Part shown: piece by piece, positions 3,419-59,878 of the stretch
How the letters are laid out: each line of letters opens with the position of its first letter
Position numbering within the stretch: position 1 is the first letter of the stretch
Assembly: GCF_903642095.1 (NCBI RefSeq)
Contig: NZ_CAHJWD020000056.1
Span: 1-64,000 of the forward strand
From: Bathymodiolus brooksi thiotrophic gill symbiont
GTDB taxonomy: Bacteria > Pseudomonadota > Gammaproteobacteria > PS1 > Pseudothioglobaceae
DNA: 64,000 bases
Reading direction: 5' to 3'
The notes under the pieces: model-generated
The model's input: only the letters and a program-made list of their open reading frames with translations
The model's database searches: none
Told to the model about the DNA's origin: nothing
Made by a program: the position numbers and the translations under genes

Positions 3419-3483
3419 GTAATATTAACCTGATAGTGTTATTATGTTCAAAAATACAATGCATAACGGTGAAGCCCTTACAC

Positions 3484-3602
3484 AAGTGAATTATTAACAA
3501 AAAATCACTTTTACCTATTTGGTATTTTTTTTAAATCCAGCCCTTTTCTGCTTAAGCATGCCACCAAGTCGAAAAAAATTGAATTTTGTTAATAATTCAC
3601 TT
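3484..3602. repeat. Palindromic element, variant member of the window's MITE-like family
   Basis: The outer arms 3484-3502 and 3584-3602 are perfect 19-bp inverted repeats (AAGTGAATTATTAACAAAA). The interior (3500-3580) resembles the interior of the copy at 7758-7919: a TTTTTACC.A.TTGGTA.TTTTTTTAAA.CCAGCC-like string and a mirrored partner near the right arm. The termini differ from the GAGACC ends of the other copies, so this is either a divergent family member or a related element. It separates two convergent genes. Confidence 0.65.
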
Positions 3603-3615
3603 ATGCAGAATTCTC

Positions 3616-7752: not shown

Positions 7753-7924
7753 AAGATGAGACCTTTACATAAATATGAATAATCATCAAAAATCTACTTT
7801 TTACCAACTTGGTAATTTTTTTAAACCCAGCCTTAGTCTTGCTAGGACAGAGTTTAAAAAAATTACCAATTCGACAAAAATTGAATTCTGCTAATCATCC
7901 ATATTTATGCAAAGGTCTCAAGAT
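7753..7924. mobile_element. MITE-like element, longest copy, with 5-bp target duplication
   Basis: The element spans 7758-7919 (162 bp). Its ends are GAGACCTTTACATAAATATG and, inverted, GAGACCTTTGCATAAATATG. The interior is a near-complete palindrome around a centre at about 7838, with mirrored ACCAA.TTGGTAA, TTTTTTTAAAC and CAGCCTTAGTC/GACAGAG parts. The flanking bases AAGAT (7753-7757) and AAGAT (7920-7924) are identical, as expected for a target-site duplication. It encodes no transposase. Confidence 0.85.
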
Positions 7925-8036
7925 GAAAAACACCATAAAATTATTATTAACATTTATGTTGATTTTTCCTGCTTATAACCAATCACACGGTGCACGAAAT
8001 CATCGTAAAAATAGAAAGAATGGTCGTATGATTTAG
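7923..8036 (+). CDS. Possible small exported peptide (doubtful)
   Basis: A 37-codon ORF begins three bases beyond the MITE-like element. The first 22 residues look like a signal peptide (MKNTIKLLLTFMLIFP..., ending near SHGA), followed by 14 mostly basic residues (RNHRKNRKNGRMI). The longer in-frame ORF from 7809 reads through the element and is not credible as a gene start. The context, length and absence of a ribosome site beyond the element make it uncertain; it may be a gene remnant. Confidence 0.25.
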   Translation: MKNTIKLLLTFMLIFPAYNQSHGARNHRKNRKNGRMI

Positions 8037-18161: not shown

Positions 18162-18312
18162 GAGCCCTTTACATATAATAAAATTCATATTTTTGCCAAA
18201 TTAGCAATTTCTGTTAACCCTGTCTTAGCAAGACTAAGGCTGAGTCTGAAAAATTTCCAAGTTGGTAAAAAGTAAGTTCTTAATGATTATTCATATTATA
18301 TGCAAAGGTCTT
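18162..18312. mobile_element. MITE-like element, degenerate copy
   Basis: The right end, read inverted, is AAGACCTTTGCATATAATAT, and the left end is GAGCCCTTTACATATAATAA; both match the family termini with changes. The interior carries the same centre as the 7758-7919 copy (CTGTCTTAGCAAGACTAAGGCTGAGT) and the AAGTTGGTAAAAAGTAAG block. No clean target duplication remains. It occupies most of the gap between the divergent psiE-like and Lol permease genes, so it sits in both promoter regions. Confidence 0.75.
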
Positions 18313-22338: not shown

Positions 22339-22416
22339 TCAGAGACCTTTGTGTGATTATGAATAATTAGAGAAATGAGGTTTTGATGATTGCTCATAAT
22401 TGTATCAAAATTTGCT

Positions 22417-24249
22417 TCATACCATGCTTAATAAAGTTTGACCCACTGTTACGGCATCACCTTCTTTAACGCTGACACTGGCCACTACCCCACCTTTTGC
22501 TGCTTTGATTTCAGTTTCCATTTTCATGGCTTCTAAAATAACCAAAACATCACCTTCATTAATTTTTTGATGTGGCAATACCATTACTTTCCAAATATTG
22601 CCAGAAAGAGGTGCACCAATTTCCTCAGCACCTGCAGTAGGTATTTTATCAATTATTTCTTTTTCTACTGGCATGTCTGCTGATGCGACTACATCTGATG
22701 CTGATTTCATAGAAGTAACATTGCCACCTGCAGAAACATCAACTTTGTAAGAAGTGCCTTTAAAGGAAACGGTATAACTACCCTCTTCGGTCGAATTATT
22801 AACACTATTACCTGCTTCTGGAACAGATTCAAAAAAATCGGCATTATTGCGATTTTCTATAAAATTAATACCCACTTGTGGGAATAAGGCATAAGTTAAT
22901 AAATCATCAATTTTATCATCGGCTATGGTTAAGTGCTTTTCTGCAACAATCTTATCAAACTCTTGTTCCAAAATATGCATTTCTGGTGCAATATTATCTG
23001 CTGGGCGACAAGTAATTGGCTTACCACCATCTAAAACCTTGGTTTGCAAAGCTTGGTCAACAGGGGCTGGTGTTGCACCATATTCGCCTTTTAAAATGCC
23101 TGCGGATTCTTTAGTAATGGTCTTATAACGCTCGCCTGTTAAGACATTTAAAACCGATTGTGTGCCAACAATTTGTGAGGTGGGTGTTACTAATGGAATG
23201 TAACCCAAGTCTTTACGCACTCGCGGAATTTCCGCCATGACCTCGTCCATTTTATCAATGGCATTTTGCTCACGCAGTTGGCTTTCCATATTGGTCAACA
23301 TACCGCCCGGCACTTGCGACAATAAAATTCTTGAATCCACGCCTTTAAGTGAGCCTTCAAACTGTGCGTATTTAGCACGAATGGGTCTAAAGTAAGCATC
23401 AATTTCTTCTAATTTCTCTAAATCTAACCCTGTTTTTCTTGGACTATTTTCTAAAATAGACACCACTGAGTTAGTCGCCGAATGTCCGTAAGTCATACTC
23501 ATAGAACCAATTGCTGTATCTACACGGTCAATGCCTGCCTCAACTGCTTTAACAATTGAAGCTGTTGATAATCCCGTGGTCGCATGTGCGTGTAATTGAA
23601 TCGGAATATCGATGGTTGCTTTGAGTTTTTTGACCAAATCATAGGCATCATAAGGATGTAGCAAACCTGCCATATCTTTAATACATAAAGAGTGTGCACC
23701 CATGTCTTCAATGGCTTTTGCCATATCAACCCAAGTTTGCATTGTATGCACTGGACTCACTGTATAAGAAATTGTGCCTTGTGCATGCTGACCCAATTTA
23801 ACTGTTTGGTCAACTGCCGTTTTAAGGTTACGCATATCATTCATTGCATCAAAAATACGAAATACACTCACACCATTTTCAGCACAACGGTCAATAAATT
23901 TTCGCACCACATCATCACTATAATGACGATAGCCTAATAAATTCTGCCCTCTGAGTAACATTTGCTGAGGCGTGTTAGGCATTACTGCTTTGATTTCACG
24001 AATCCTATCCCAAGGGTCTTCGCCAAGATAGCGAATACAAGAATCAAAAGTTGCCCCGCCCCAAGATTCCATCGACCAATAGCCAATCTTATCCAGTTTG
24101 TCGGCAATCGGTAGCATATCGTCTATACGCATTCTCGTTGCAAACAGAGATTGGTGCGCATCCCGAAAAACAAGTTCGGTAATTTCTACTTTTTTAGTAT
24201 TTCCCTGACTGACAGGCTTTTGAATAATATTCTTTAGAAAATCTAACAT
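22417..24249 (-). CDS. oadA: Oxaloacetate decarboxylase, alpha subunit
   Basis: OadA transfers the carboxyl group of oxaloacetate to biotin. The 610-residue protein has a carboxyltransferase TIM barrel (residues ~20-290): LVFRDAHQSLFATRMR near 28, ESWGGATFDSCIRYLGEDPW near 60, the metal-site HAHATTG near 218 and the catalytic Lys in LCIKDMAGLL near 185. A conserved carboxylase (PYC_OADA) domain follows. The C-terminal biotinyl domain holds the biotinylated Lys in EAMKMETEI near 577. It sits between oadG and oadB. The enzyme probably couples oxaloacetate breakdown to a Na+ gradient. Confidence 0.96.
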   Translation of the reverse strand: MLDFLKNIIQKPVSQGNTKKVEITELVFRDAHQSLFATRMRIDDMLPIADKLDKIGYWSMESWGGATFDSCIRYLGEDPWDRIREIKAVMPNTPQQMLLRGQNLLGYRHYSDDVVRKFIDRCAENGVSVFRIFDAMNDMRNLKTAVDQTVKLGQHAQGTISYTVSPVHTMQTWVDMAKAIEDMGAHSLCIKDMAGLLHPYDAYDLVKKLKATIDIPIQLHAHATTGLSTASIVKAVEAGIDRVDTAIGSMSMTYGHSATNSVVSILENSPRKTGLDLEKLEEIDAYFRPIRAKYAQFEGSLKGVDSRILLSQVPGGMLTNMESQLREQNAIDKMDEVMAEIPRVRKDLGYIPLVTPTSQIVGTQSVLNVLTGERYKTITKESAGILKGEYGATPAPVDQALQTKVLDGGKPITCRPADNIAPEMHILEQEFDKIVAEKHLTIADDKIDDLLTYALFPQVGINFIENRNNADFFESVPEAGNSVNNSTEEGSYTVSFKGTSYKVDVSAGGNVTSMKSASDVVASADMPVEKEIIDKIPTAGAEEIGAPLSGNIWKVMVLPHQKINEGDVLVILEAMKMETEIKAAKGGVVASVSVKEGDAVTVGQTLLSMV

Positions 24250-24818: not shown

Positions 24819-24913
24819 ATACCCTTTTATCAATAAAAAAAGTTATTTTACTCCATTGCCACACTCTTAAACAAAAAAAGGTTAAGGTTTTAACGCTAAA
24901 ATAAATACGCTAT

Positions 24914-24987
24914 GAGGCCTTTGCATAAATATGGATGATTAGCAGAATTCAATTTTTGATGATTATTCATATTTATGCAAAGGTCTC
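24914..24987. mobile_element. MITE-like element, shortest copy (74 bp)
   Basis: The ends are GAGGCCTTTGCATAAATATG and, inverted, GAGACCTTTGCATAAATATG. It equals the 101-bp copy at 41867-41967 minus a 26-bp segment lying between two short AATTTTT repeats, plus one A. The element lies between the divergent infA and metF genes, 37 bases before the metF start. The flanks (GCTAT / ATTAT) agree only partly, so any target duplication has decayed. Confidence 0.8.
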
Positions 24988-25023
24988 ATTATAATAAGCC
25001 TATTTAGACTATATTAAATACAA

Positions 25024-25845
25024 ATGAAAACAAGTTTTGAATTTTTCCCACCAAGGACTGAAAAAGGCAAACAAAATTTAGCACAAGTTCAACAAGAATT
25101 AAGTGTTATTCAGCCAGACTATTTCTCTGTTACTTTTGGTGCTGGTGGCACAACACAAGATGCCACATTAGAGACAATATTAAACATTCAGAAAAATGAC
25201 CTCGTTTCTGCCGCCCCTCATTTGTCTTGTATTGGTTCAGAAAAAAAGAATATTATTGGGCTACTTGACCAATATAAAGCAGTTGGAATTAATCGAATTG
25301 TAGCTTTGCGTGGCGATATTCCATCAGGTGTGCGTGATATTGGTGATTTTCATTATGCCAATGAATTGGTTGAATTTATCAAAACACATTATGGTGAGCA
25401 ATTTCACATTGAAGTGGCAGCTTATCCTGAAATGCATCCACAAGCCAAAAATATCCACGCTGATTTACAACATTTTGCCAACAAAGTAAGGACTGGTGCA
25501 GACAGTGCGATTACGCAATATTTTTATAATGCAGATGCCTATTTTAGATTTGTTGATGACATTGAAAAACTGGGCATTAATATCCCAATAACACCAGGTA
25601 TTATGCCAATTACTAACTATACACAATTGGTTAGATTTTCTCATATGTGTGGTGCAGAAATTCCAAAATGGATTTTAGAAAGATTAAAGTTATATGAAAA
25701 TGATCTTGATGCACTGAGTGCATTCGGCACAGAAATAGTTACTAACTTATGTCAAACGCTTAAAGACCAAGGTGTGAACAATTTTCATTTTTATTCAATG
25801 AATCGCACACAACCCTCATTAGACATTGCTAAAACCATTCTATAA
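25024..25845 (+). CDS. metF: 5,10-methylenetetrahydrofolate reductase
   Basis: MetF reduces methylene-THF to methyl-THF for methionine synthesis, using FAD. The 273-residue protein begins SFEFFPPRTEKG (catalytic Glu in EFFPP). It shows SVTFGAGGTTQ near residue 39, HLSCIGS near 69, IVALRGDIP near 98, VAAYPEMHPQA near 130, KVRTGADSAITQYFYNAD near 157, and PGIMPITNY near 192. It is monocistronic, with a MITE-like element in its upstream region and a convergent HTH gene behind. Confidence 0.95.
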   Translation: MKTSFEFFPPRTEKGKQNLAQVQQELSVIQPDYFSVTFGAGGTTQDATLETILNIQKNDLVSAAPHLSCIGSEKKNIIGLLDQYKAVGINRIVALRGDIPSGVRDIGDFHYANELVEFIKTHYGEQFHIEVAAYPEMHPQAKNIHADLQHFANKVRTGADSAITQYFYNADAYFRFVDDIEKLGINIPITPGIMPITNYTQLVRFSHMCGAEIPKWILERLKLYENDLDALSAFGTEIVTNLCQTLKDQGVNNFHFYSMNRTQPSLDIAKTIL

Positions 25846-41861: not shown

Positions 41862-41972
41862 TTTATGAAACCTTTGCACAAATATGGATGATTAGCAGAA
41901 TTCAATTTTTACCAAGTTGGTAAAAAGTGAATTTTTGATGATTATTCATAATTTATGCAAAGGTCTCTTTAT
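41862..41972. mobile_element. MITE-like element (101 bp) with perfect 5-bp target duplication
   Basis: The element spans 41867-41967. Its ends are GAAACCTTTGCACAAATATG and, inverted, GAGACCTTTGCATAAATTAT. The interior keeps only one ACCAAGTTGGTAAAAAGTGA block, so it is an internal-deletion form of the 162-bp copy. TTTAT flanks it on both sides (41862-41866 and 41968-41972). The right-hand duplicate contains the TAA stop of the gltD-like gene, so insertion occurred at that stop codon without altering the protein. As RNA it would form a long hairpin between this gene and dsrA. Confidence 0.88.
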
Positions 41973-43402
41973 GCTAAATATTCATCAACTTTAGTAGCAA
42001 CACCACGACCTTCATTGATTGCCCACACTACCAAGGATTGACCACGACGACAATCGCCCGCAGTGAAAATCCCTGCTTGAGAAGTAGCATATTCGCCATA
42101 ATTCGCTTGATAGTTACCGCACTTATCAAGATCAATATCTGCATCATTACTTAAATAATGTTCTGGGGCGATAAAACCCATTGATAAAAGCACCAATTGC
42201 GTGTCCCAAATTTTTTCACTGCCGTCAATTTCAATCAACTGACCTTCTTTAAAATCAACATTGACTGTGTTAAGTCCAACAACTTTACCACGCTCATCCT
42301 TGACAAATGACTTGGTCATTAAGTGATATTGCCTAGGATCTGCACCAAATACTTCTGCTACTTCGGCATGACCATAATCCACACGATAAATCAATGGCCA
42401 AAGTGGCCAAGGATTACTTTCTGCACGGTCTTCAGGAGGTTTGCCCATTAACTCAAAATTCACAATTGACTTTGCACCTTGACGCAACGCTGTGCCAATA
42501 CAATCTGTGCCTGTATCGCCACCACCAATCACAATCACATCTTTGCCTTTAGCGGATAATTCTGAATCATCAGCATGCCCAGTGTTTAATAAACTTTGCG
42601 TATTGCTAGTCAAATATTCCATCGCCAAATGCACACCGTGTGCATCACGATTATCTACTGGTAAATCACGCGCTTGTGTTGCACCCGTGGTAAATACCAA
42701 TGCATCAAAATCTTTTTGCAATTGCTTAGTGCTAATGTCTTTACCAACATTAACATTGGTAATAAAATCAATGCCCGATTCTTTGAGTAAATTCACACGA
42801 CGATCAACCACCTCTTTGCCGAGTTTCATATTAGGGATGCCATACATTAATAAACCACCAATGCGATCAGAACGCTCAAAAACGCTCACGCTATGTCCTA
42901 GTTTATTAAGCTCTTCTGCTGTCGCTAAGCCCGCAGGTCCAGAGCCGACCACTGCTACTTTTTTTCCTGTGCGATACAAGACTTTATGTGGCTGAATCCA
43001 ATTCTCATCAAAACCACGGTCAACAATGGCTTGCTCAATATTTTTAATCGTTACTGCTGGATTGTTTAATCCTAATACACACGAACCCTCACAAGGTGCG
43101 GGGCAAACTCGCCCTGTGAATTCTGGAAAATTATTGGTTTTATGTAAACGCGTTAATGCCTCTTGCCATTTGTCGTGATAAACCAAATCATTCCATTCAG
43201 GGATTAAATTATCAACGGGACAGCCGTTACTTGATTGACAAAAGGGCACACCACAGTCCATACATCTTGCCCCTTGGTCTTGCAAATGTGCAACATCATG
43301 CGTGCCAGTAAAAATTTCATCATAATCTTTAATGCGCAGTTCAACAGAACGATATGCCTCAGTTTTTCTATCAAATTCCTTAAATCCAGTTACTTTTCCC
43401 AT
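41969..43402 (-). CDS. gltD: Glutamate synthase small-subunit-like flavoprotein (GltD family)
   Basis: The 477-residue protein is a full-length GltD-type NADPH-dependent electron-transfer subunit. The N-terminal cluster domain has [20 protein letters not shown] near residue 40 and [15 protein letters not shown] near 96. FAD binding is at [23 protein letters not shown] near 147, and NAD(P)H binding at [19 protein letters not shown] near 290. The end is [22 protein letters not shown]. No gltB lies next to it: upstream is divergent rplS. It precedes dsrA on the same strand and shares its family with DsrL, so a Dsr-related role is possible. Confidence 0.9.
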
Positions 43403-48400: not shown

Positions 48401-48669
48401 ATCGTTGGTAGCAGTGCATCAGGCCTCTCATCTTCAATAATTTTTTCAACTGTGTGCCATTCAATTGGTTCAATATAAGTTGCATCTGCCATTTGTGGGT
48501 CGGTCATAATCGTAGCTGGATTGGAATTAACCAAAATCACCCGATAACCTTCTTCACGCAATGCGGCACACGCTTGTGCACCTGAATAATCAAATTCACA
48601 CGCCTGCCCAATGACAATAGGGCCGGCACCAATGATTAAAATACTTTTTAGGTCTTGTCTTTTAGGCAT
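45460..48669 (-). CDS. carB: Carbamoyl-phosphate synthase large subunit
   Basis: CarB makes carbamoyl phosphate for pyrimidines and arginine, using ammonia from CarA. The 1069-residue protein has the expected two ATP-grasp halves: [26 protein letters not shown] near 9, [23 protein letters not shown] near 298, then [21 protein letters not shown] near 555, [20 protein letters not shown] near 845, and an allosteric MGS-like domain at the end. Its ATG lies only one base after the remnant of a MITE-like end, and it is separated from carA by the mlaA-like gene. Confidence 0.97.
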
Positions 48670-48684
48670 TATGTAAAGGTCTCA
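48670..48684. repeat. Remnant end of a MITE-like element before carB
   Basis: On the minus strand the 15 bases directly before the carB ATG read TGAGACCTTTACATA, the outer end of the window's MITE-like family. No matching second end lies near. This end therefore forms the leader just before the carB start codon; only a weak GAG-type ribosome site is left there. Confidence 0.6.
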
Positions 48685-57211: not shown

Positions 57212-57240
57212 AAAAAACCCGCTTAATGCGGGTTTTTTTA
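57212..57240 (+). terminator. Terminator after the tusE-like gene
   Basis: An AACCCGC / GCGGGTT stem with a short loop has an A-run before and seven T after. It lies between convergent tusE-like and alaS, so it may serve both strands. Confidence 0.9.
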
Positions 57241-57246
57241 TCAACT

Positions 57247-57287
57247 TAGCAATTTTTTAAACCCAGCCTTAACTCTGCTAGACTAAC
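57247..57287. repeat. Central fragment of a MITE-like element at the alaS stop
   Basis: The string TTTTTTAAACCCAGCCTTA followed by CTCTGCTAGACT matches the middle of the 7758-7919 copy (there TTTTTTTAAACCCAGCCTTAGTCTTGCTAGGAC). No ends of the element remain. The alaS stop codon (57278-57280) lies in it, so the last alaS codons may derive from the element. Confidence 0.55.
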
Positions 57288-59878
57288 AAAGTCTTAATTG
57301 AAGCCAATGCCACATCCAACTTACTTGGATCTGTGCCACCACCCTGTGCCATATCTGGACGACCACCACCTTTGCCGCCAATTTGTTGTGCCACATGGTT
57401 GAGGATTTTTCCTGCTTGATATTTATTAGTTAAGTCTTTTGTTACGCCAGAGACTAGAGAAACTTTATTGTCATTTACAGCGGCTAAAACGATAACTGCC
57501 GAGCCTAATTTGTCTTTGAGTTTGTCGGCAATGTCGCGTAAATCTTTGCCACTCACGCCATCCACGATACTGACAAGTAATTTAACGCCATTAACTTCTT
57601 GTGCTTGACTAATTAAATCATCACCTTGATTGCTGGCGAGCTGTTTTTGAAATGAGGCAATTTGTTTTTCTAATTCTTTTTGTTGTTTAATCAATTGTGC
57701 TACTTTTTCTACGGCTTGTGCATTGTTTGACTTTGTCATTTGTGCAATTTGACCCAAACTGTCTTGCGTATGATTGTCAAACTGATAAGCCTCATAACCT
57801 GTCATTGCTTCAATGCGACGCACGCCAGCAGAAACACCACTTTCTGAGGTAATTCTAAACAATCCAATATCTCCTAATTGATTAACATGCGTGCCGCCGC
57901 ACAATTCTACGGAAAAATCCCCTTTACCCATCGTCAAAACACGCACAGTATCACCGTATTTTTCGCCGAATAACGCCATTGCACCTTTCTTTTTAGCAGT
58001 GTCGATATCGGTAACATCGGTATGCACTTCGGTATTACCTAGAATCTTACGATTAACCATACCTTCAATTTTATCAAGATCTGATTTGGCAATTATTTCA
58101 TCGTGTGAAAAATCAAAACGCAATTTCTCACTATCAACCAACGAACCTTTTTGCGTTACCGTTTCCCCTAAAGTTACCCGTAATGCAGCGTGCAAAAGGT
58201 GCGTGGCTGAGTGGTTTCTGGCAATGCGTTTGCGGGCTTTTTTATCTACATTTGCCTCTAATACATCGCCTACTTTTAACACGCCTTTGGTCAAAACACC
58301 GTGGTGTTCAAATGCACCTGATTTCTGTTTTTGAGTATTGTTAACTGAAAATTCTATTTTTTGGTTAGACAATATGCCACTATCACCCACTTGACCGCCT
58401 GATTCAGCATAAAAACTTGATGCTGTCAAAACCACAATCCCGCATTCACCTGCTTCAATTTTTTCAACCAATTCACCCTCTTTAATTAGCGCTTGCACTG
58501 AAGAGGTATTTTTCAACTGCTTATAACCTAAAAATTCGGTAACTGCACTAACCTCCACACCTTTTTGCGATACTTTAAAATCACCCGCTTGTCTGGCACG
58601 CTCTCTTTGCTTGGTCATTTCCACTTCAAAGCCCGTCATATCAATGGTTAAATTGTGCTCGCGTGCCACATCAGCAGTTAAATCTGCTGGAAAACCAAAA
58701 GTATCATAAAGTTTAAACACCGTTTCACCACTAATTTCACTGCCTTTAAGTTGTGCAATCGCCTCGGTTAAAATTCCCATACCTTGGTCTAGCGTCTGTG
58801 CAAATCGTTGCTCTTCTCGCTTTAATACTTTTTCAACATTGGCTAATACTTTTTTGAGTTCTGGGTAAGCGTCTTTAAGTTCCAACGCCAAAACAGGTGC
58901 CAAACGGTAGAAAAATACTTTATTAATACCAATCTTATGCCCATGACGAATGGCACGACGAATAATGCGACGCAATACATAGCCCCGCCCTTCATTCGAT
59001 GGAATAACGCCATCAACCAACATAAAAGCTGTTGAACGAATATGATCGGCAAGCACACGCACTGAGGCGTTATCTGCTTGAATATTGTCATCTTTTGGAG
59101 TTAAGTTGACAATGGCTTTGATTAAAGCTTTAAACCCATCGGTGTCGTAATTGTTGTTTTTATGCTGTAATACTGCCGCCAATCGCTCCAGCCCCATACC
59201 AGTATCTACACAAGGTGCCTCAAGGGGCTTAAGATAACCATCTTCTTGCTTGTCGTATTGGGTAAAAACCAAATTCCAAATTTCTATATAACGGTCACCA
59301 TCTTCGTCAGCATGTCCCGGCGGGCCACCTGCAATGCCTTCACCATGGTCGTAAAAAATCTCGCTTGAAGGGCCACAAGGTCCAGTATCTCCCATTTGCC
59401 AAAAATTATCCTTGGCACCACAACGAGAAATACGGTTTTTGGGAAAGCCAATTTCGTTAACCCAAATATTTTCCGCTTCATCGTCTTCTTCAAACACGCT
59501 AATCCAAAGCTTTTCTTTTGGCAGTCCGATTTCAACAGTTAAGAATTCCCATGCATATTGAATTGCTTCTCGTTTAAAGTAATCACCGAATGAAAAATTA
59601 CCCAACATTTCAAAAAAAGTATGATGTCGTGCAGTATAACCCACATTTTCTAAATCGTTATGCTTGCCACCTGCACGCACACATCGCTGGCAACTCACTG
59701 CCCGAGTATAAGGGCGTTTTTCCACGCCACTAAATACATCTTTAAACGGCACCATACCAGCATTAACAAATAATAAAGTTTTATCATTATGCGGAATAAG
59801 TGAAGCGCTTGGCTCAATAGTATGCCCTTTTGAGGCGTAAAAATCTAAAAATCTTTGTCGTATTTGTGCAGTTTTCAT
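57278..59878 (-). CDS. alaS: Alanyl-tRNA synthetase
   Basis: AlaS charges tRNA-Ala. The 866-residue protein has the class II catalytic core (QRFLDFYASKGHTIEPSASLIPHNDKTLLFVNAGM near residue 8, RAVSCQRCVRAGGKHNDLENVG near 60, HHTFFEMLGNFSFGDYFK near 87). The editing domain is HSATHLLHAALR near 560, with the zinc-site Cys in ELCGGTH near 662. A C-terminal domain follows, ending with QIGGKGGGRPDMAQGGGTDPSKL near 840. The size is as expected. Its very end runs into a MITE fragment. Confidence 0.97.
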   Translation of the reverse strand: MKTAQIRQRFLDFYASKGHTIEPSASLIPHNDKTLLFVNAGMVPFKDVFSGVEKRPYTRAVSCQRCVRAGGKHNDLENVGYTARHHTFFEMLGNFSFGDYFKREAIQYAWEFLTVEIGLPKEKLWISVFEEDDEAENIWVNEIGFPKNRISRCGAKDNFWQMGDTGPCGPSSEIFYDHGEGIAGGPPGHADEDGDRYIEIWNLVFTQYDKQEDGYLKPLEAPCVDTGMGLERLAAVLQHKNNNYDTDGFKALIKAIVNLTPKDDNIQADNASVRVLADHIRSTAFMLVDGVIPSNEGRGYVLRRIIRRAIRHGHKIGINKVFFYRLAPVLALELKDAYPELKKVLANVEKVLKREEQRFAQTLDQGMGILTEAIAQLKGSEISGETVFKLYDTFGFPADLTADVAREHNLTIDMTGFEVEMTKQRERARQAGDFKVSQKGVEVSAVTEFLGYKQLKNTSSVQALIKEGELVEKIEAGECGIVVLTASSFYAESGGQVGDSGILSNQKIEFSVNNTQKQKSGAFEHHGVLTKGVLKVGDVLEANVDKKARKRIARNHSATHLLHAALRVTLGETVTQKGSLVDSEKLRFDFSHDEIIAKSDLDKIEGMVNRKILGNTEVHTDVTDIDTAKKKGAMALFGEKYGDTVRVLTMGKGDFSVELCGGTHVNQLGDIGLFRITSESGVSAGVRRIEAMTGYEAYQFDNHTQDSLGQIAQMTKSNNAQAVEKVAQLIKQQKELEKQIASFQKQLASNQGDDLISQAQEVNGVKLLVSIVDGVSGKDLRDIADKLKDKLGSAVIVLAAVNDNKVSLVSGVTKDLTNKYQAGKILNHVAQQIGGKGGGRPDMAQGGGTDPSKLDVALASIKTLLV

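Follow-up and report, generated by a model that had tools for sequence, protein, structure and literature searches.

A probable IS5-type MITE family with shortened forms and two end types in Pseudothioglobaceae

MITEs with a proposed or reported partner in the IS5 family are known from other bacteria. According to the available portions of one article (PMC4596501), the AT-rich repeat (ATR) of Neisseria meningitidis is a non-autonomous MITE whose proposed IS5-family parent is ISNme1, with ends GAGACCTTTGCAAAA, and the BrickBuilt MITE of Porphyromonas gingivalis occurs with ISPg1/ISPg9 (IS5 family); the ends given there for ISPg1 are GAGACCATTGCA / TTCAAAGGTCTC, and a BrickBuilt copy with perfect ends carries GAGACCTTTGCA / TGCAAAGGTCTC. 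In an animal symbiont, the IS982-derived MITE of a Cardinium endosymbiont has spread and is thought to be kept by its parent insertion sequence, as described in the accessible part of PMC9769881. The available text of the paper on B. thermophilus EPR9N reports insertion sequences by ISfinder and no MITE (PMC9789115), and the end motif of the family described here occurs in a primer in the accessible part of a Kingella paper (PMC5070880). No published description of this family was found in the open-access PMC literature, among the matches listed.

The window analyzed here comprises bases 1-64000 of an 81,483-base contig from a 2.37-Mb draft genome of 548 contigs (G000, the own genome below). 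The dispersed repeats that it contains very probably belong to an IS5-type MITE family that makes 5-bp duplications and takes its transposase from elsewhere, most likely from an insertion sequence named IS-A here. Relatives are referred to by number; G006 and G011 are taken to be the B. septemdierum and B. thermophilus symbionts, respectively.

Copies in the window

The earlier note on this DNA had described three main copies with common ends. They lie where it placed them and have the inverted ends GAGACCTTTGCATAAATATG, and the 20-bp end was found six times in the window at ≤3 mismatches compared to a mean of 0.01 in 100 shuffles (Table 1). The 101-bp and 74-bp copies are inverted relative to the 162-bp copy. 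Sequence comparison bore out that removal of the centre of the 162-bp copy gives the 101-bp copy. The 74-bp form had been described as differing from the latter by the loss of a 26-bp piece between AATTTTT repeats; that piece is gone, and one further base is gone too. The unequal flanks of the 74-bp copy are read as a probable 5-bp duplication with two bases decayed. Two degenerate relatives proposed at 18162-18312 and 3484-3602 are real, as is the fragment proposed at 57247-57287, which is a piece of the core, and the better bounds of all three are those of Table 1. The fragment proposed at 48670-48684 turned out to be a bare 15-mer at chance level in that search and is not to be counted. The statement that no transposase is encoded in the window held in profile searches with DDE_Tnp_1 and NF033581, neither of which gave a match on its contig.

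Table 1. Family copies in the window (positions in the window) and type II elements in the related genome G002 (positions in the locus named)
Feature	Position	Strand	Details
Full-length MITE copy, 162 bp	7758..7919	+	5-bp duplication AAGAT at 7753-7757 and 7920-7924; empty site in G011 (L320)
101-bp internal-deletion form	41867..41967	-	TTTAT at 41862-41866 and 41968-41972; no copy at aligned site in G008, G005, G009 (L302, L304, L307)
74-bp internal-deletion form	24914..24987	-	Flanks GCTAT / ATTAT; TATAAT motif upstream of metF; empty in 8/11 relatives
Degenerate copy	18182..18311	-	84% identity to bases 2-130 of 162-bp copy, E 3e-30
Old degenerate copy	3475..3615	+	Between two convergent ORFs; 68% identity, 158 columns, E 4e-16
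Weak degenerate copy	22342..22431	-	Between two genes on minus strand; 67%, 91 columns, E 2e-5; absent from the earlier note
Core fragment	57235..57314	+	Overlaps 3' end of alaS; 73%, 83 columns, E 6e-8
15-bp match to one end only	48669..48683	-	E 0.48, not significant alone
Type II element, 163 bp	L281:15079-15241		Ends GAGACCCCTGCATTGGG
Type II element, 163 bp	L282:11112-11274		Ends GAGACCCCTGCATTGGG
Type II element, 163 bp	L303:1293-1455		Ends GAGACCCCTGCATTGGG
Type II element, 163 bp	L327:18624-18786		Ends GAGACCCCTGCATTGGG

The 74-bp copy splits a conserved TATAAT motif upstream of metF, and the duplication leaves TATAAT beside the element end (window 24914-25024). A promoter-like match, TTCATA-18-TATAAT (10/12), spans the metF junction; the signal is weak, with three promoter-like matches in the metF stretch compared to 1.1 in shuffles. 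At the 101-bp copy, the stop codon of a 477-aa oxidoreductase gene (41969-43402, minus strand) lies within the right-hand duplication. Judged from the sequence, the window copies may have local effects on neighboring genes.

Three bases separate the 162-bp copy from the ATG of a small ORF (7923-8036, 37 aa), which by eye has a signal-peptide-like start. The aligned G011 sequence of this ORF appears longer.

Spread of the family and its insertion sites

When the own genome was searched with the 162-bp copy, as the earlier note had advised, many further copies were found, in 95 match rows (both strands, partial ones counted), and the end motif occurred 73 times at ≤2 mismatches compared to 0 in the control. 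The family was present in all 12 genomes of the genus that were searched, in G001 and G010 via weak partial matches only, and beyond the genus in 4 of 13 other genomes of the bacterial family and in 0 of 15 outside the bacterial family. A sample of 369 genomes of the class contained it in four, all of Pseudothioglobaceae, a count with which rare copies elsewhere remain compatible. Among plasmids, no match was obtained with the 162-bp copy as query. The genus that hosts the family includes sulfur-oxidising symbionts of deep-sea mussels, and its genomes range from about 1.1 to 2.8 Mb. In G011 there were 492 end matches at ≤2 mismatches (control, 0), and 28 end-paired elements made up 0.98% of the bases of an evenly spaced 400-kb sample, compared to four elements (0.16%) in a comparable evenly spaced 400-kb sample of G002. 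The mean identity of copies was 0.97 within G004 and 0.91 within G011 compared to 0.75 between these two genomes, a difference that is counted in favor of putative bursts within species.

Element copies were also seen at contig ends of the own genome (G000:C196:1-91, C339:4-56 and C34:7389-7480), which suggests that the repeats break the assembly.

Ends lying 34-260 bp apart were paired in stretches of eight genomes and the flanks were then compared. Exact 5-bp target duplications were found at 81 of the 122 end-paired elements; the stretches were picked around matches, so these counts are not densities. The sets gave 13/28 in the own genome, 24/30 in G004, 17/20 in G007, 16/27 in G011, 7/9 in G005, 3/5 in G002, 1/1 in G012 and 0/2 in G006. 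For the five larger sets, shuffled flanks gave a mean of 0.6-1.4 exact 5-bp repeats, and no other duplication length from 2 to 9 stood out comparably against shuffled flanks. In the evenly spaced samples, exact duplications were present at 10/28 elements in G011 and 3/4 in G002. Elements with no exact duplication thus numbered 18 of 28 in the G011 sample, and both of the two in G006 were of this kind.

Each of the three main window copies has at least one relative with an empty site, a comparison that the earlier note had proposed. At the 7758 site, G011 has the site without the element; in the ten other fetched loci one flank or both were missing, and there was no match in G010. At the 24914 site, the target in the empty relatives reads ACGCTATAAT (ACGATATAAT in G006), and G004 and G011 carry separate family insertions nearby; G010 was not judgeable here. 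At the 41867 site, where G003 was not judgeable, the three relatives listed in Table 1 align through without the element. No paired ends were found there in G004, G006, G001, G007 and G010, but the alignment of these was poorer; G011 has a degenerate relative by reading, and G002 has a type II element.

The elements also leave no room for a transposase gene (in the own genome, 25 of 28 paired elements measure ≤163 bp and the longest 209 bp) and have terminal inverted repeats, the outermost 18 bases pairing in the consensus fold of ten subfamily consensuses, from which G008 and G021 were left out. Together with the target duplications (81/122), the many unrelated sites and the empty sites in relatives, these are the properties of a MITE. 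Near-identical copies and intact duplications point to a family that would have been active in the recent past.

The 162-bp copy folds strongly compared to shuffles (z -8.85 as RNA and -7.40 as DNA), a result in keeping with its near-palindromic sequence. Among 79 distinct real cores, 92.2% of the cells of the central stem were paired, compared to a mean of 89.6% and a maximum of 90.4% after shuffling, and one pair failed in 45 of 78 rows. This result is weaker than that of an earlier count (95.5% compared to 90.0%), from which the consensuses of G008 and G021 were absent, as were the L160 copy and two copies of type II. Changes that preserve pairing comprise a G-C to C-G switch and, in type II elements, T-A to C-G and T-A to A-T. 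The pairing of the stem is compatible either with selection acting on it or with sequence copying from one arm to the other. A strong predicted RNA hairpin, with stem pairing somewhat above shuffles and some paired changes, is what might be seen if the host maintained the repeats as regulatory or RNA elements (terminators, riboswitches or structured RNA) and they were not mobile DNA, but this account is highly improbable. It is opposed by the target duplications and the empty sites, the latter refuting it as the primary nature of the repeats; furthermore, an Rfam scan of the window gave only two tRNAs at the gathering score, and no terminator-like site was present within the scanned stretch 24850-25060. 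A host role of single copies is possible. A terminator role of the core was considered and rejected by reading, the T and A tracts being on the wrong sides of the stem.

Shortened forms, transposase source and second end type

The internal-deletion forms described in the earlier note are real, and the same junctions recur at other sites. In the own-genome set, the 74-bp form occurs at five sites with one junction, forms of 90-101 bp at six and forms of 47-58 bp at three. In the G011 set the 74-bp junction was seen at one site and a 57-bp form at two, and in the G007 set a 100-bp form at two. By reading, the junctions lie at short direct repeats, which are TTGGTAA in the forms of approximately 100 bp, ATTTTTG/AATTTTT in the 74-bp form and TGGAT in the 57-bp form. 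We infer that the short forms would arise by slippage between such repeats across the palindrome. Exact duplications flank 3/6 of the 90-101-bp forms and 1/3 of the shortest forms in the own genome, 2/2 of the 100-bp forms in G007 and 1/2 of the 57-bp forms in G011.

Duplications show insertion and not the form that was inserted, because a copy shortened in place keeps them. They are therefore no argument against the alternative that the short forms are not mobile lineages and that a full-length copy was reduced to the short form at each site, through hairpin deletion at the same direct repeats, an account to which we give somewhat less than an even chance. With junctions at short direct repeats inside a near-palindrome, one deletion can happen repeatedly, and only one of the five 74-bp copies of the own genome has an exact duplication. 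On the other side, eight of the 11 relatives have an empty site where the 74-bp copy lies at metF, none has a full-length copy at that exact site, and one 74-bp junction is common to the five own-genome sites and a site in G011, although neither point is decisive. On the basis of the empty metF site and of the junction shared between species, we lean towards the 74-bp form having moved as such.

A search for an insertion sequence with the same ends, also advised in the earlier note, led to IS-A, the name used here for an IS5-family insertion sequence with MITE-like outer ends. Two places in the own genome matched DDE_Tnp_1, one of which is a 1140-bp insertion sequence (L074:1173-2312) with ends GAGACCTTTGCATAAATCAACC and GAGACCTTTGCATAATTCATAAC and an ATGTA flank on both sides. 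The transposase of this copy, the only one of IS-A found in the own genome, is broken, with one TAG and one TAA in its N-terminal NF033581 match; the draft may be without intact repeated insertion sequence copies. Two IS-A copies with an open 347-aa frame are present in G006, and CP125320.1 (Candidatus Ruthturnera sp. Tsphm01) contains 22 near-full-length IS-A matches. The IS-A transposase (336-aa protein) scored 245 bits with NF033581 (transpos_IS5_4) against a cut-off of 140 and matched Pfam DUF772 and DDE_Tnp_1; by these matches it is a predicted transposase of the IS5 family. The likeness of the MITE ends to those of IS5-type elements, suggested in the earlier note, agrees with the ISNme1 and ISPg1 ends in the available portions of PMC4596501.

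The ends of IS-A are GAGACCTTTGCATAAATCAAC and GAGACCTTTGCRTAATTCATAA, with one or two bases different in some copies, and exact 5-bp duplications flank 12 of 26 copies (null mean 0.56, maximum 3). MITE and IS-A agree in roughly their outermost 15-17 bp and in duplication length, and differ in the inner half of the 30-bp ends. The MITE ends are conserved over approximately 30 bp, with a mean subfamily difference of 0.02-0.08 per 10-bp block compared to 0.20-0.36 in several inner blocks, and since the match to IS-A stops at 15-17 bp a closer partner may exist. Since the agreement is confined to these outer bases, and 1.92 Mb of loci yielded no unexplained long element carrying 30-bp ends, IS-A or a close relative is put no higher than the probable transposase source of the MITE.

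That a different insertion sequence, with ends matching all 30 conserved bases, moves the MITE and that IS-A is only similar in its outer ends is unlikely. The excess of conserved end bases over the IS-A match speaks for it, as does G011, where the transposases found are only approximately 30% identical to that of IS-A despite the 492 end matches. However, the 5-bp duplication length is the same for IS-A, and a search of fetched, partly overlapping loci totalling 1.92 Mb, which admitted exact 5-bp flanks only and ≤4 mismatches in the outer 17 bp, brought up no unexplained long element with 30-bp MITE ends. Our preferred reading is that a transposase made elsewhere, most likely by IS-A, would act on the MITE ends, and that copies would be inserted with a 5-bp target duplication.

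Five rows of the long-element search had MITE-type ends, and each was explained otherwise. L245:10685-14326 contains two MITEs followed by similar sequence beside related large ORFs and was read as a local duplication; in L259:12982-14459 (G004), by reading, an insert containing transposase-like ORFs splits a MITE; and L261, L265 and L277 (319-328 bp) were judged by length to be two adjoining or nested MITEs.

The element at the 41867 locus of G002 has the same kind of core with ends GAGACCCCTGCATTGGGTATG. Among the four type II elements of G002 (Table 1), the 5-bp duplication is exact in two, has one mismatch in one and is lacking in one, and two of the four are identical in sequence; in G011, one element has a type II end on one side only. 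The type II core is 66-76% identical to five common-type consensuses (200 shuffles of one core gave a mean of 49% and a maximum of 58%), and its 30-bp ends are 55-68% identical to those of the common type, the reverse of the pattern inside the common type. The ends of the common type, GAGACCTTTGCATAAAT, are IS-A-like, and type II ends are closer to those of a second insertion sequence of G011, AAGACCCCTGCAT. This is a 1.3-kb IS5-type element encoding 341 aa that is abundant in G011 (L215, L220 and ten more loci), where 28 transposase matches cover profile positions 33-285 of 285, and exact 5-bp duplications flank 10 of the 12 copies examined. In G002, the NF033581 search gave a single weak match, and the second insertion sequence was not seen there.

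These comparisons, made on few type II elements, suggest that the ends may follow the insertion sequence while the core persists. Going further, one MITE lineage might have retained its length and its central hairpin through a joint change of both ends that matched them to two different insertion sequences; this end-switch is a tentative reading, on balance doubtful, and the part worth following. If true, the core would not be filler but would be kept by selection, for example as a structure aiding transposition or limiting harm to the host.

Significance and relation to known systems

The family takes up about 1% of the evenly spaced 400-kb sample of the largest genome of the genus. Window copies lie in a promoter-like region and at gene boundaries, so differences in gene expression between strains could follow from the family, which can also mislead assembly and annotation. 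Its shortened forms, together with its two end types, amount to a natural test of the MITE parts needed for movement.

In the available portions of PMC4596501, ATR is likewise non-autonomous and has 19 copies; the comparison made here is with its published ends. Unlike ATR, the present family occurs in Pseudothioglobaceae, its ends continue TAAATATG, and its duplications are 5 bp long. BrickBuilt resembles it in that no transposase remnant is described inside, but carries a minisatellite and has 18-19 copies per strain and no fixed duplication length, as given in the same portions of PMC4596501, whereas the present main form is approximately 161 bp long with a 5-bp duplication; for this pair, published ends only were compared. 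The Cardinium MITE belongs to another insertion sequence family and is reported, in the accessible part of PMC9769881, as unique to one strain, whereas the present family extends across a genus and beyond it. ERIC elements of enterobacteria, likened by copy number alone, also reach high numbers, and several hundred copies are not a record because up to 711 are given for Photorhabdus luminescens in the available text of PMC10969869. By its score, IS-A belongs with the NF033581 (transpos_IS5_4) insertion sequences, as a candidate partner and not the MITE itself. The kind of MITE is thus already known, and what is new is this family, its shortened forms and a sister type with different ends.
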